53,029 nt of DNA from Flavobacteriales bacterium (GTDB lineage: Bacteria; Bacteroidota; Bacteroidia; Flavobacteriales_F; PHOS-HE28), in the NCBI GenBank assembly GCA_016788485.1, contig JAEUSV010000115.1:1-53029 (forward strand), read 5' to 3'. Made by a program: the position numbers and the translations under genes. Shown here one piece after another: positions 14,457-28,274 of the stretch; the first letter of the stretch is position 1, and each line of letters begins with the position of its first letter. The notes beneath the pieces were generated by a model that saw nothing but the letters and a program-made list of their open reading frames with translations, made no database searches and was not told the origin of the DNA.

Positions 14457-15206
14457 ATGGTCCTATACCGCATGGGCAACAAGCAGCGCATCGTCCACCG
14501 CATCCTGCCCTTCATTCCTCCGCATCAGCTCTGGATCGAACCGTTTTTCGGGACCGGGGCAATGCTGTGGGCCAAGCCACGCACGCGCTCCATCGTGAAT
14601 GACAGGGACAGTGAGGTATTCAATTTGTTCTGCGTGATCCAGGACCAGGAGCACGAGCTGCAGGATGCCTGGTGCGCGATGCCCATCCACGAGGACCTCT
14701 GGAAGCACTGGCGCCGGCATTGTCCGACCGACCCGGTGCAACGGGCGGTGCGCTTCCTCTTCCAGAGCAACTTCTCGTTCCTGGGCAAGGGTGGCACCCT
14801 GGTGTGGAACAGGAAGAACGCCAAGCGCCTGCTGCAGGACCGCATCAAGCAGACGCGCGAGCTGCTCTACGACGTGGAGTTCATGAACGTGGACTTCAGG
14901 TGCATGCTCGGGCGCATCCCGCTGTCCAAGGGTGATCGGCGCGGAGCTTTAATCTACTGCGACCCGCCCTATCTCGATACGGCTAACAACTACGGGATGG
15001 CCAGCGCGTGGAACGAGGGCGACACGCGCGACCTGTTGGCCATGCTCGCATCCAGCGGCATGCGATTCGCCATGTCCGAGTTCGACCACCCCACGGTCCT
15101 GAAGCTGGCCAAGGAGCATGGCCTGCAGGTGGTCACCATCGGCGACCGGCACAACCTGCGCAACCGGCGCACGGAGATCCTGGTGTGCGGAGGCTTTACG
15201 GCCTGA
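14457..15206 (+). CDS. Dam-type DNA adenine N6-methyltransferase (D12 class)
   Basis: Transfers a methyl group from S-adenosylmethionine to adenine in DNA. The 249 residues contain the class-alpha order: the SAM-binding motif IEPFFGTGAMLW near residue 26 preceded by GNK, NDRDSEVFNLF, a target-recognition region, then the catalytic IYCDPPYLD with Asp169-Pro-Pro-Tyr172. The C-terminus is complete. In a Mu-like phage it could protect DNA from restriction or tune promoters, as Mu's Mom and host Dam do. Target sequence is unknown. It lies in the middle operon ahead of the sigma-like factor. Confidence 0.9.
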   Translation: MVLYRMGNKQRIVHRILPFIPPHQLWIEPFFGTGAMLWAKPRTRSIVNDRDSEVFNLFCVIQDQEHELQDAWCAMPIHEDLWKHWRRHCPTDPVQRAVRFLFQSNFSFLGKGGTLVWNRKNAKRLLQDRIKQTRELLYDVEFMNVDFRCMLGRIPLSKGDRRGALIYCDPPYLDTANNYGMASAWNEGDTRDLLAMLASSGMRFAMSEFDHPTVLKLAKEHGLQVVTIGDRHNLRNRRTEILVCGGFTA

Positions 15207-18888: not shown

Positions 18889-21519
18889 TTAAGCGCTGCC
18901 GGGCATCTTCTTTACCAGCATGCCTGAGCGGATGCTGGTCTCGTCCGTCATCTCGTACCAGCCGGTCACCCTCATGGTCGGTACTCCGCCCTTGGGGGCT
19001 TTGGAGATGGAGGCCCTCACCACCATTGGCTTGTCCTGGTAGAACCGGATGAACGACAGCTCCGTGTTGTCGCCTCCTCGGCCCGTCATCCACACCTCGT
19101 CAGGCGCCTGTAGCACGTCCGGTATCAGGTTCGCCGTCGCGAAGCGCCTCTTTCCCTCGTACTTCGGCGTGGAGTGCTCTTCGATGGTGCGCTCTTCCAT
19201 CACCCAGGGCCGGCCCTTGTGGTCGTTGAACACGGCAACCCCGTCAGTATTGCGGACCGCTTCGAACCAGCGACGCATGCCCTCGTTGTCCTGGATGGTC
19301 TCGGGCGCCACAGGGAGGCCGCCACGCTTGTTGATGTCGGGCCAGTTCATGTCGCCCCGGTCGTAGCTGTCCTTCACCCCGAACTTCAGGTCGCGGCCAA
19401 GGACATCGCGGAACGAGCTATTGAGCCGGAACACCTCTCCGCTCACGGCGCGGTTCCCGTCGAAGCCCTGCTTCTTCATGCGGGCCAGTTCGCCTTTCAT
19501 CTTCTGCTTCACCCCATCCCATTGCTTGTTGGCCTCGTCCCCGGTAGGCCCTTCCTGCGTGGGGAGTACGGTGCACCTGCAGCGCCAGCCGTTGGGTGGC
19601 CAGATGGTTCGCCAGGCCGGATGGTTGAGCGGCCACATCTTGCCGTGCAGGTCGGCGTGAGCCTTCCGCACGGCGCTGTCCTCCATGGTGATGTATTCGC
19701 CGTTGGGCAGCACGTCGGCGCTCTGCTGCATATCGAACCAGCGCCCGGCTTGAATGCCAGTTAGTGTGACGTTGATGTACTCGGTGCGCAGCTGGGCCTC
19801 GTTGTAGTCCTTCAGCACCTGGCTCTGCTGCACACGGGCCTTGAACCGGCTGAAGCTCTCGCCCTCCTTCGCCATCGCGTTGATGTCCTGCGTGGCGGAC
19901 AAGGTCTTCAAGCCCGCGAAGCGGAACAGGTTGGCCTCCATCATGGCCCGCACCACATGGTCAGGAGCGTCGTACTGCAGGTTGCCGATGGCCGGCTTCC
20001 AAGCCTGGTCCAATGCCCGCATGTAGATGTCGGCCACTGCCTCGCTGTAGGCCTGGCTCCATGCCTTGCCGTCGTAGCCGGCACGGATCAGGGCATCAAG
20101 GGCTTCCTGATCCAGGTTCGGCGTTTCTTCGGCCGTGATGTCCTGGCTTCCGCCGCACACGCCGCACATCGGCACCTGTTTGCGTGGCCAGCTCGCGTTC
20201 ACACCATCGCCGTCCTCGTCCTCGGGATCCTCTTCGTTGGTGCCGGCGCCCTCGCCCTTCTTCTTACCGCTCTGCTTGCCGGTGCCGGCGACTTCGCCAG
20301 GCATACGCCGCGCACCCAGGATGCGGATGCCCGTGCGCTCGGCCACGAACTCCGGGTCGATGTCATAGACCGTGCCCAGCTTGGTCACGGCGTCAACCAG
20401 TTCGGTGCTGCTCATGTCACGGAACTCGTCCCAAGAGAAACGGACGCCGGCCAGCGGGTAGCCCAGCTTCACCAGACGGGGGAAGAGCTCGTTGTTGATC
20501 ACGTAGCCCACGCTGGCCTTGTCCGCCTGGTGACGGTCCTCGGCCACGCCCTGCAGCACCTTCAGCGAGCCGTAAGTGCCGCTGGCGTCCTTGTTGTCAC
20601 TGGTCCCATCCTGCCCAAGGACGCGCTTGCTCATCTCGCTGTTCATCCGCACGATGAGCTCGTCGAACACCTTGTGCGCGTCGGTGCCTGGGGTGGGCAT
20701 GATGTTGATCTCCTCGTCGCCCTGGATCACGGCGTAGGAACTGCTGATCATGCCCTGCATCACCGCTTCCAGTTGCTTCACCCGGTGCTTGTCCGTGGTG
20801 TTGGTCTTCACCCACCGGCCAGGGATGCCGAACTTCTCGGTGAAGTCGCTCCAAGAGCCGGACGCGTACTTCTTGATGATGGCCATGGGCGCCACCTGGC
20901 TCAGTATACCCAGCTCGTCCGGCCGGCCCACCTCCACCAGGTAGTCCACCAGGGGTGCCTCGCGGTAGGGATAACCCTTGTCCTCGCCCTGGCGCTTCAC
21001 CACATGGCCGGTCCAGGGCAGCACGTTGCGTGGGTCGATACGGTTCACCTGGCGCAGCTCTCCGGGCTTGGCAAGCTCGCCCAGCTCGATCAGGGTATGT
21101 CCCCGGAAAGTGGCCTCGGCCACGTACCGCAGGAAGTCCTCGAACCAACGGTGCTCCAACAGGGGCATCAGCTCGGGCTGGGCCTTGCCGCCCTTAGTGA
21201 GCTTGAACTTGCTACGAACCACCCGCAGCACCCGGCTCTCCATCACACTGGCCAGGTGGCTGTCGACCAGGATGCTGTCATAAAGGTCCAGCAGGCGGCT
21301 ACGGTCGGGCCGCAGCGGGTTCTGGGCCATGTTCAGAGCCATGATCCAGTCCTGCATGTCCACGCTCCGGTGAGGCATCTTCCAGGCCTCCAGGTCGGGC
21401 ATTCGGAAGCTGGGGGCTACCGGGGCGGAAGTGGCCTTGGCGAAAATCGCCGCTCTAATGCGTTGAAATAACCTCGGACGGGGTGCGGTGCCGGTCGGGA
21501 TCATATCGTTCAAGTTCAA
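18889..21519 (-). CDS. Portal protein / F-like head protein / PBECR nuclease domain fusion
   Basis: 876 residues. Residues 1-420 look like the Mu gp29 portal family (DUF935): LDLYDSILVDSHLASVMESRVLRV, FTEKFGIPGRW, then SWDEFRDMSSTELVDAV. An acidic linker (421-440) and CGVCGG (452-457) follow. Residues 480-655 match the Mu F-like minor head domain, ending in the typical NGWRCRC. Residues about 725-876 resemble the phage barnase-EndoU-ColicinE5/D-RelE (PBECR) nuclease fold (FNDHKGRPWVMEERTIEEHS, YEGKRRFATANLIPDVLQAPDEVW; GRGG). Mu encodes portal and F separately. The fusion gives one polypeptide for the dodecameric portal and the injected or internal head protein. Confidence 0.87.
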   Translation of the reverse strand: MNLNDMIPTGTAPRPRLFQRIRAAIFAKATSAPVAPSFRMPDLEAWKMPHRSVDMQDWIMALNMAQNPLRPDRSRLLDLYDSILVDSHLASVMESRVLRVVRSKFKLTKGGKAQPELMPLLEHRWFEDFLRYVAEATFRGHTLIELGELAKPGELRQVNRIDPRNVLPWTGHVVKRQGEDKGYPYREAPLVDYLVEVGRPDELGILSQVAPMAIIKKYASGSWSDFTEKFGIPGRWVKTNTTDKHRVKQLEAVMQGMISSSYAVIQGDEEINIMPTPGTDAHKVFDELIVRMNSEMSKRVLGQDGTSDNKDASGTYGSLKVLQGVAEDRHQADKASVGYVINNELFPRLVKLGYPLAGVRFSWDEFRDMSSTELVDAVTKLGTVYDIDPEFVAERTGIRILGARRMPGEVAGTGKQSGKKKGEGAGTNEEDPEDEDGDGVNASWPRKQVPMCGVCGGSQDITAEETPNLDQEALDALIRAGYDGKAWSQAYSEAVADIYMRALDQAWKPAIGNLQYDAPDHVVRAMMEANLFRFAGLKTLSATQDINAMAKEGESFSRFKARVQQSQVLKDYNEAQLRTEYINVTLTGIQAGRWFDMQQSADVLPNGEYITMEDSAVRKAHADLHGKMWPLNHPAWRTIWPPNGWRCRCTVLPTQEGPTGDEANKQWDGVKQKMKGELARMKKQGFDGNRAVSGEVFRLNSSFRDVLGRDLKFGVKDSYDRGDMNWPDINKRGGLPVAPETIQDNEGMRRWFEAVRNTDGVAVFNDHKGRPWVMEERTIEEHSTPKYEGKRRFATANLIPDVLQAPDEVWMTGRGGDNTELSFIRFYQDKPMVVRASISKAPKGGVPTMRVTGWYEMTDETSIRSGMLVKKMPGSA

Positions 21520-25295: not shown

Positions 25296-26357
25296 ATGAA
25301 GCACATCCTCTACATCCTCACCAGCCTGGTCTTCGCCCTCATCGCTGGCGCCACCTTCGGCATGACCACCGGCGCGGACGTCCACACCAGTATGGCCGGG
25401 GCCGTTGGCCTCTCCATGGGCCTGAGCGTGGCCGCCAGCTTCGCGCCCGCCAGCACCTTCAACGGCTTGGGTGCCGTGATGCTCAAGCAGATGTGGGAGA
25501 CCGAGATGCTCAACGCGTTCCGAAGCTCGGGCAACTGGATGCAGGCCATTCCGCGCAAGGACCAGTACGTGGGCAACAACGTGATCAACCTCACGGAGAT
25601 CGGTGCTGACCCCACGCTGCTGATCAACAACACCTCGTACCCCATCGCAACGGCCGCCCGCGTGGATGACAACGTGGCGCTCGCGCTGAACAAGTACGAC
25701 ACCACCAACACCAAGGTGACGCGCGACGAGATGCAGGCGCTGCCCTACGACAAGGTGGACAGCGTGATCCGCCAACACAAGGACGTGATCCTGGAGGGCA
25801 CGCGCAAGCACGGGCTGTGGAACCTGGCCATCGCTGGCGACAGCGCCACCACCCCGCTGGTGGAGACCACGGGCGCCGACAACGGGTCCAGCCGCAAGGC
25901 CATCCGTACGGCGGACATCCTGAAGCTCAAGCTCCGCTTGGACAACCTCTTCGCCCCCGAGGAGGGCCGCAGCCTGGTGATGTGCTCCGCACACATCAAT
26001 GAGCTCCTCCTGGAGGACCAGAGTTTCAACCTGCGGTACCAGAACCACACCGAGGGCAAGATGATCACCCGCTACCACGGGTTCGACATCTACGAGGATA
26101 AGTACAACCCGGTGTACACGGCCGCCAACGCGAAGAAGGCCTTCGGGGCCGCCGCCGCCGGCACGGACCGCAACGCCTCGGTGTGCTTCATCGCCGGTCG
26201 CTCCTTCCAGGCCACCGGCACCCTGGAGATGTTCTACCGGGACAAGGCGAACGACCCGGAGAACCGCGAGACCGTGGTGGGCTTCCAGCTCTACCACATC
26301 ATCGCCCCGAAGAAGACCACCGCCTTCGGCGTGATCGTGAGCGACGACCTGGCCTAA
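25296..26357 (+). CDS. Major capsid protein
   Basis: 353 residues, HK97-like in plan. The core reads LKQMWETEMLNAFRSSGNWM, DQYVGNNVINL, GADPTLLINNTSYPI and LALNKYDTTNTKVTRDE, a pattern of Bacteroidota phage capsids. Unusually, the first 55 residues are strongly hydrophobic (MKHILYILTSLVFALIAGATFG and a second segment at about 33-50), looking like two membrane helices. This leader is probably removed by the preceding protease or directs prohead assembly to the membrane. It follows the protease-scaffold gene by 62 bp. Confidence 0.85.
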   Translation: MKHILYILTSLVFALIAGATFGMTTGADVHTSMAGAVGLSMGLSVAASFAPASTFNGLGAVMLKQMWETEMLNAFRSSGNWMQAIPRKDQYVGNNVINLTEIGADPTLLINNTSYPIATAARVDDNVALALNKYDTTNTKVTRDEMQALPYDKVDSVIRQHKDVILEGTRKHGLWNLAIAGDSATTPLVETTGADNGSSRKAIRTADILKLKLRLDNLFAPEEGRSLVMCSAHINELLLEDQSFNLRYQNHTEGKMITRYHGFDIYEDKYNPVYTAANAKKAFGAAAAGTDRNASVCFIAGRSFQATGTLEMFYRDKANDPENRETVVGFQLYHIIAPKKTTAFGVIVSDDLA

Positions 26358-26418: not shown

Positions 26419-27765
26419 ATGCGCGAGCTGAAGCGATACAAGGAGGAAGCAGTGGTGCTGCTGCTCGGTACCCTTCTGTTCCTGGCCGTCCGCTGGCTGT
26501 CCATCCACTACTGGAGCACCCCGGACATCGCCGGAGATGCCCCGAACCAGTACGACATGCGCAGTGAGACCGAGACGATCCTCTGGACCATCCTGCGGAT
26601 GTTCGTCTACACGCTCGCCAGCTGGATCGGTCTGCGCATCATCATGCCGGCCGGCTACAAGTGGCTCCGCCATGACGTCGTGGACAACCTGGGCGCCCTG
26701 AGCCCGGAACAGCGCACCAACCTCACCACGCGCATGTGGGCCATCCTCTTCTTCGGCCTGGTGCTGCTGGCCATGAGCGGCTGCGCCCCGGCACACGGGG
26801 CCACCACGCGGCAGTGCGTGGTGGCCAGCGCCACCGCTGACGTGGGGGTGCGCGAGGCGACGGGCCGCAACGACGGCCCGGCCGTTGAGCGTTACCTCGC
26901 CCACGTGGGCCATAAGGCCGGTGCCAGCTGGTGCGCCGCCTTCGTCTGCTACCACCTCTCCCAGTGCGGCGTGGCGAACCCGCGCAGCGCCTGGAGTCCG
27001 GCACTCGCTTCGGTTGGGGACAGGGTGTGGACGGCTCGCAAGGCCGTTCGCGCCCCCCAACCGGGGGATGTCTTCACCCTCTACTACCCGCAGCTGGGCC
27101 GGGTCGGCCATGCTGGCATCGTCACCGGCACGGACGGCCGGTACCTCTTGACCGTGGAGGGCAACACGAGCGGTCCAGGGAGCCGCGAAGGCGATGGCGT
27201 CTACGCCCGCCGGCGCGAGCTGCGCAAGGTCTATGCTGTCACCAACTACATCGCCGATGCGAACCCTGCTACCGCTGCTGCTCCTGGTCGTACTACCGGC
27301 GTGCAAGCAACTGCGCACCACCACCGATACGCACACCACCGAGCGCACCGAGCGCAGCTCAACGGTGGTGCCACGAGATACTTTGTTGCAGGTCCCCGGC
27401 GGCCAGGCGCACCTGTCGGTGCCGCTGCCGCCGCCGGGGCAGGACCTGTCCCCGCGAACGGAGCGCAACGGTCGGGCCTGGGTGAGCGTGAGCTCACAGG
27501 CTGGCCGGCTGGTGGCTACCGGTGGCTGCGACACCACGGCCATAGCGGCCCGGCTATGGGACCGGTTCACCAGGGAGCACCAGGTGAAGGAAGTGGAGCG
27601 CACGGTACAGCAGACCGTCGAGCGCAAGGTGGTGCCGTGGTATGCGTGGGTCAGTATCGGCGTCAGCGCCACGATGCTGGCGGCCGTGCTGATCGGCATC
27701 CTCGCCCTCGTGGTGCGCAAGCGCTGGACCCTTTCCTGGTAACCCCCAACCCCTGCCTTCAATGA
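26419..27765 (+). CDS. Holin-like plus CHAP endolysin fusion (3' part overlaps the spanin gene)
   Basis: 448-codon open frame. Residues 1-105 have two membrane helices (about 11-27, 54-76) and look holin-like. M106 starts a third helix ending in a lipobox (LLAMSGC121). A CHAP/NlpC-type peptidase follows at about 135-280 with Cys172 (ASWCAAFV) and His231 (RVGHAGIV). The lysin domain ends near residue 280 (TNYIADAN). The last 165 codons are low-complexity and entirely overlap a spanin gene in the +1 frame, so they may be a shadow or a lost stop. ATG 26734 (M106) could make a separate lipoprotein-like or SAR-type lysin. Confidence 0.8.
   Translation: MRELKRYKEEAVVLLLGTLLFLAVRWLSIHYWSTPDIAGDAPNQYDMRSETETILWTILRMFVYTLASWIGLRIIMPAGYKWLRHDVVDNLGALSPEQRTNLTTRMWAILFFGLVLLAMSGCAPAHGATTRQCVVASATADVGVREATGRNDGPAVERYLAHVGHKAGASWCAAFVCYHLSQCGVANPRSAWSPALASVGDRVWTARKAVRAPQPGDVFTLYYPQLGRVGHAGIVTGTDGRYLLTVEGNTSGPGSREGDGVYARRRELRKVYAVTNYIADANPATAAAPGRTTGVQATAHHHRYAHHRAHRAQLNGGATRYFVAGPRRPGAPVGAAAAAGAGPVPANGAQRSGLGERELTGWPAGGYRWLRHHGHSGPAMGPVHQGAPGEGSGAHGTADRRAQGGAVVCVGQYRRQRHDAGGRADRHPRPRGAQALDPFLVTPNPCLQ
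27257..27742 (+). CDS. Unimolecular spanin-like lysis protein
   Basis: 161 residues from ATG 27257. A signal peptide with lipobox (VVLPAC, Cys16) targets the N-terminus to the outer membrane. A Pro-rich periplasmic stretch follows, then a helical segment (about 95-125). A C-terminal membrane helix (about 129-153) ends in RKRW. A lipoprotein N-terminus with a C-terminal inner-membrane anchor is the layout of u-spanins such as T1 gp11, which fuse the two membranes in lysis. It is fully nested in another frame of the lysin open frame. Confidence 0.77.
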   Translation: MRTLLPLLLLVVLPACKQLRTTTDTHTTERTERSSTVVPRDTLLQVPGGQAHLSVPLPPPGQDLSPRTERNGRAWVSVSSQAGRLVATGGCDTTAIAARLWDRFTREHQVKEVERTVQQTVERKVVPWYAWVSIGVSATMLAAVLIGILALVVRKRWTLSW

Positions 27766-28274
27766 GCAGCATCCCCAAGAAACTCCTCGCTGCGGCCGAG
27801 GATGCACTGACGCGGTATCCCAACGCGCCCTTCGTGACGGTGACCGAGGATGGCAACGCCTGGCTTCCCGGCAATGCCAGCCTGGCCGAGCACCATGCCC
27901 GCCAGGAGCGCCTCCCGAAACCGGTGACCGTGACCCGCGCCGATGTCGGCCTGGAGCCCGTGGTGATCGGTGCCGAGCCCGTGACCACCCCCGCGAAGGG
28001 CAGCGATGAAGAGCCCCCCGTGAACGAGGCTGAAGGGTCTGAAGCAGCCACCAGCGCTGAAGAGGCCACCGTCGAACACGGCACGCCACGTGGCGCTGAC
28101 CTCCTGGGTGACGTGGTGTCCCTGGGCAAGAAGAAGGAGGTCGAGAGCACCGTCGTGGTGCAGCGCTCTTTCGTGGACAGCGGGCTGACCATGCAGGAAT
28201 GGAACAGCCTGGATGACGACGCCATCCTGGAGCACCTCTTCGAGACCATCGAAGCCCTGAAGAAGGAGGCCTGA
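27762..28274 (+). CDS. Unknown virion-region protein
   Basis: 170 residues. An N-terminal folded part (PNAPFVTVTEDGNAWLPGNASL) is followed by an acidic, Ala/Glu-rich disordered stretch and a helical C-terminus (DDDAILEHLFETIEALKKEA). It sits between the lysis genes and the sheath, where Mu has the small gp35-gp38 genes. No family recognised. Its start overlaps the end of the lysin open frame in ATGA. Confidence 0.65.
   Translation: MSSIPKKLLAAAEDALTRYPNAPFVTVTEDGNAWLPGNASLAEHHARQERLPKPVTVTRADVGLEPVVIGAEPVTTPAKGSDEEPPVNEAEGSEAATSAEEATVEHGTPRGADLLGDVVSLGKKKEVESTVVVQRSFVDSGLTMQEWNSLDDDAILEHLFETIEALKKEA

Follow-up and report, generated by a model that had tools for sequence, protein, structure and literature searches.

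A putative unimolecular spanin gene nested within a stop-free endolysin frame of Mu-like Bacteroidota phages

A gene for a putative unimolecular spanin (u-spanin) is nested in the open frame of an endolysin in a Mu-like prophage, and the endolysin frame is probably kept open across the nested gene by selection, with a long disordered tail as its likely product. The window, that is, the whole 53,029-nucleotide stretch analysed here, was recognized as a Mu-like prophage by profile matches to a Mu portal, a Mu F-like protein, a DUF2586 sheath, an AAA/MuB-like protein and integrase-core genes. A single 876-aa frame on the minus strand (18892-21519) covers the Mu portal, the Mu F-like head protein and a PBECR2 nuclease-like domain, and the prophage also contains a gene for a D12-class adenine DNA methyltransferase (14457-15206). 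On the plus strand, a single frame of 448 codons (26419-27765), identified as an endolysin from its domain matches and relatives, occupies the space between the major head protein gene, which ends at 26357, and a gene at 27762-28274 with a weak match to phrog_13934. The TGA stop of the lysin sits within the ATGA (27762-27765) at which this next gene starts, 20 nt past the stop of the nested gene. The initial annotation had placed a spanin frame of 161 residues with a lipobox cysteine at position 16 at 27257-27742, completely inside the lysin open frame and in its +1 frame. Both the coordinates and the translation of this frame were reproduced exactly, and reading the two frames side by side confirmed the complete nesting.

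The endolysin frame combines an N-terminal membrane domain, a peptidase domain and the extension that overlaps the spanin gene. Three predicted membrane helices (residues 2-32, 47-75, and 96-120; 26422-26778), seen in the AlphaFold2 model, form a holin-like part that is fused to the lysin and is common to the 16 aligned lysins of Bacteroidota phages; no separate holin gene lies between the head gene and the lysin in the window. The CHAP/C51 peptidase domain follows at residues 133-277 (26815-27249), with matches to PF05257 (E = 5.7e-8; 33.6 bits against a curated cut-off of 26) and to the endolysin family phrog_9589 (E = 9.5e-15). The CHAP catalytic residues Cys172 and His231 are invariant in the 16 aligned sequences. 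AlphaFold2 folds residues 1-280, and the remainder of the C-terminal extension (residues 280-448; 27256-27765) is predicted to be disordered, with residues 285-448 at a pLDDT of about 30. What had been described as low complexity beyond residue 280 turns out to be a GC-rich gene read in the wrong frame, and it is predicted to be disordered. When the extensions were inspected for independent starts of their own in the lysin frame, none proved to be conserved.

The nested gene encodes a lipoprotein with the layout of a u-spanin, as the initial annotation had proposed. Its translation starts MRTLLPLLLLVVLPAC and ends in a hydrophobic helix followed by RKRWTLSW. The lipobox VLPAC leads to Cys16 (codon at 27302-27304), and corresponding lipoboxes (ALGAC, AMGAC, LVSGC) are found in every homologue, with the cysteine invariant in the 12 aligned spanins; the lipobox is recognised from sequence only, and the Pro at -2 in the window is atypical. 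In the structure model, a C-terminal membrane helix spans residues 128-160 (27638-27736), and this region is hydrophobic in all aligned homologues. Four strands are predicted at residues 50-91, where the block reaches a pLDDT of up to about 90 in a model whose overall pTM is 0.35. Together with the position in the lysis cassette, the lipobox, the predicted four-stranded periplasmic part and the C-terminal helix suggest that the lipoprotein acts as a spanin. Fold searches with the protein returned no match at E <= 0.001, and profile and fold searches found no sequence or fold match to any characterised u-spanin. Relatives were likewise absent from tblastn searches of public phages and from a pattern scan of IMG/VR, probably because these proteins evolve too fast for direct search, so homologues were collected through the lysin. 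About 90% of the aligned spanins share a periplasmic cysteine at about residue 90 (alignment column C91; near 27527 in the window). The true start may be the ATG at 27233, eight codons upstream of 27257 and within lysin Tyr/His-Ala codons, since seven of the eight closest loci, counting the window, have an ATG in the corresponding position (the exception is L038). This start would add the segment 27233-27256 and give a protein of 169 aa.

Because the third codon position of the spanin is the first position of the lysin frame, a lysin-frame stop requires a codon ending in T before a codon starting with AA, AG, or GA. The spanin stretch of the window is 68% GC and has few codons ending in T, and 62% of synonymous-codon shuffles of the spanin gene leave the lysin frame open (P = 0.62). 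The window by itself therefore proves nothing, as chance in GC-rich DNA could suffice. We compared it with ten further loci that have the nested layout and spanin genes of 0.34-0.66 GC, most of the compared loci being metagenome-assembled genomes (MAGs) or viral contigs. These comprise six loci with lysins of the same genus (57-72% identity), the IMG/VR contig L204, and the distant low-GC loci L207 (identical to L041), L133, and L206 (36-38%). The initial annotation had suggested looking among relatives for a lysin stop before 27257, which would reduce the arrangement to plain adjacency. Such a stop is absent from all ten nested homologues and was seen only in distant lysins and in L039, which has no adjacent nested spanin. 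Genome G436 also carries, on a second contig, a further, diverged nested cassette, L038/L102, whose lysin core is 91% identical to that of L033.

All 11 nested loci have a lysin frame that runs open through about 144-169 codons overlapping the spanin gene: L133 and L206 for 144-145 codons, and the window and the other eight, L207 among them, for the full length of that gene. By shuffling, about 39 stops would be expected in the lysin frame across the full spanin genes of the 11 loci, and none was observed in the lysin-open part. The seven stops that do occur (three in L133, four in L206) all fall within the last ~30 spanin codons, at or past the lysin stop. The probability of an open frame by synonymous shuffling is 2.5e-4 for L207, 5e-5 for L133, and below 5e-5 for L206 (none in 20,000 shuffles). 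Pooled over the nested loci, T is found at 0 of 339 stop-creating sites, before an AA, AG, or GA codon, versus 208 of 1379 sites elsewhere; P values pooled in this way overstate the case because the loci share ancestry. Identity among the spanins of these loci nevertheless amounts to only 14-63% where they align, and their four-fold sites approach saturation. Both frames are thus free of stops beyond chance in the nested loci, and the layout is conserved, with stops purged from the lysin frame, at 34% to 68% GC.

The absence of stops is the sole constraint seen on the lysin-frame extension. Four-fold degenerate sites of the spanin are mostly replacement sites for the lysin frame, and in close pairs they are at least as variable as those of the lysin core, with 0.51 versus 0.35 differing between L035 and L036 and 0.52 versus 0.28 between L033 and L038. 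The net charge and hydropathy of the extension have the values dictated by the spanin codons, as judged against shuffles, and extensions from distant loci share about as much identity as shuffled ones do. None of these three comparisons detected amino-acid constraint on the extension in the nested loci. A conserved or consistently basic tail was also considered and rejected, as the net charge varies from 0 to +17 among loci, the same as in shuffles. A long disordered tail of free sequence fits the purging of stops, the unconstrained residues and the predicted disorder.

The idea that we favoured at first was that the lysin extension arises by chance, as an out-of-frame reading that the biased third positions of GC-rich DNA leave open, and that the lysin proper is in effect adjacent to the spanin gene. 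The ease with which shuffles of the window stay open agrees with this idea, as does the finding that about 7% of 160-codon windows in the other phage genes of the compared genomes are open in the lysin-type frame. There is also mild codon-pair avoidance, with ratios of observed to expected stops in the same alternative frame of 0.62-0.90 in other genes of high-GC hosts and phages. However, the low-GC homologues overturned it. The other genes of the three low-GC loci show no avoidance (ratios of 1.07, 0.93, and 1.04), so that genome-wide codon-pair avoidance is too weak to be the cause, and the longest open run in any of these genes is 36 codons in L206, 76 in L133, and 78 in the third locus. 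L206 and L133, at 34-45% GC, are nevertheless among the 11 of 11 loci with an open lysin frame, and in both of them stops return directly once the lysin has ended. The remaining alternative frame of the spanin genes contains about as many stops as expected. We consider a chance origin of the open frame very improbable.

The main alternative is that selection acts on the passage of ribosomes rather than on the tail, if translation of the lysin has to run through the spanin gene, ends at the start of the next gene and aids re-initiation there (ATGA/TGATG coupling). The unconstrained amino acids of the tail would be expected under such coupling, and in the window as well as in all seven closest loci no more than about 5 nt separate the lysin stop from the next ATG. 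Against this, the lysins of L133 and L206 stop ~90 nt ahead of the next gene and yet show the strongest stop avoidance; here it is the spanin end, not the lysin end, that lies at or near the start of the next gene, and in L207 the lysin stop falls within the next gene. Coupling is therefore not the reason in L133 and L206, where the frame is open for 144-145 codons although the lysin ends early, which rules it out as the general reason, and we regard it as an unlikely explanation of the open frame. Programmed frameshifting that joins the two frames into a lysin-spanin fusion would make use of their +1 offset and overlap of about 150 codons, but the signal of the lipoprotein must be at a free N terminus and its gene has a start of its own, and a shift into the spanin frame would leave no need for the lysin frame to remain open beyond it. 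No shift site was noticed in a non-systematic inspection, and we give frameshifting the least credence of all. A different doubt concerns the lipoprotein, which might be another envelope lipoprotein carried in the cassette. It has no match to a characterised u-spanin, and its conserved periplasmic cysteine is absent from all 58 u-spanins in a published survey (PMC6139136), although lacking one describes those proteins and is not part of what defines a u-spanin. This identity is nonetheless improbable for a protein with a lipobox, a C-terminal membrane helix, a predicted beta-rich middle, and a place directly after the lysin in about 60 loci.

The nesting is unusual, as the initial annotation had judged. 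An automatic filter over 212 distinct loci with related lysins retained 60 in which a u-spanin-like gene neighbours the lysin gene, although it overlooked some loci known to be nested, L133 for one. The overlap is all-or-nothing, with at least 84% of the spanin gene overlapped in seven of the 60 loci, at most 8% in the other 53, and none between. These 53 are plainly adjacent, and nesting was found only in the phage group of the window. Two high-GC loci, L094 and L088, have lysin frames that run 117 and 109 codons beyond the CHAP domain.

In L128-L130, L132, and L205 the lysin has the same three helices at its N terminus and the same CHAP domain, but its stop follows that domain, and there is neither an extension nor a nested spanin. 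Since such unextended lysins exist and adjacent u-spanin-like genes are common, both parts are probably older than the nesting and the extension is probably derived. On the lysin tree the nested state requires two changes, which could be two origins or a single origin followed by loss in L039. L039 lies inside the nested clade and shares the three helices and CHAP domain, but has a short lysin followed by other genes.

Spanins have been classified as embedded, overlapped, separated, and unimolecular (Kongari et al. 2018, PMC6139136), and a 2025 survey reported that Bacteroidetes phages exclusively use unimolecular spanins (PMC12596118). The lipoprotein of the window resembles T1 gp11 and other u-spanins (PMC6139136) in being a single protein with an outer-membrane lipoprotein signal, a C-terminal membrane helix and a possible beta-rich periplasmic part, encoded last in the lysis cassette. 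It differs from them in sharing no detectable sequence family, in its conserved periplasmic cysteine, and in being nested in a lysin. In lambda Rz/Rz1, too, a lysis gene harbours a lipoprotein gene in its +1 frame, but the enclosing frame there is the inner-membrane spanin, whereas in the window an endolysin frame encloses the gene for an entire putative u-spanin. The layout is accordingly not of the embedded (Rz/Rz1) type, as the enclosing frame carries a CHAP domain and not an i-spanin. In the plain cassettes of Bacteroidota phages (for example, L043, L045, L050, L129, and L209) a CHAP lysin is likewise followed by a u-spanin-like lipoprotein; however, these lysins stop soon after the CHAP domain, without a long extension, and overlap 0-8% of the spanin gene. 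A literature search, limited and covering few subscription journals, found no published u-spanin nested in an endolysin frame.

The preferred reading, in which a nested u-spanin lies in a lysin frame held open by selection, would begin with the loss of the original stop behind the CHAP domain of an endolysin, the +1 frame of which holds a u-spanin gene. Ribosomes starting at 26419 would make three membrane helices, a CHAP domain located in the periplasm, and a disordered tail of 145-170 residues, and internal starts at 27233 or 27257 would give the lipoprotein. As a lipoprotein whose C-terminal helix sits in the inner membrane, the spanin would bridge the inner and outer membranes and disrupt the outer one at lysis, after the wall has been cut. 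If so, the long lysin would be made, and the length or disorder of its tail would be the property under selection. There is an even chance, in our estimation, that selection keeps the lysin frame open, with its residues free, because a sequence-free disordered tail of ~145-170 residues is needed for lysis or its timing. On this same evenly balanced reading, the architecture would add a whole u-spanin inside a lysin frame to the embedded, overlapped, separated, and free-standing unimolecular arrangements.

Spanins are a prime example of overlapping genes in phages. In the known cases of nesting, one spanin half lies within the other; here a whole putative outer-membrane disruptor lies within an endolysin frame. 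A second frame that is apparently constrained only to stay free of stops is unusual and offers measurable evidence for a tail that is expressed but free in sequence. Gene callers are likely to miss one of the two genes in phages with this layout. In a group of Mu-like Bacteroidota viruses a single piece of DNA seems to carry the code for two proteins, and the nested spanin with its one-sided selection may represent a new variant of spanin gene architecture.
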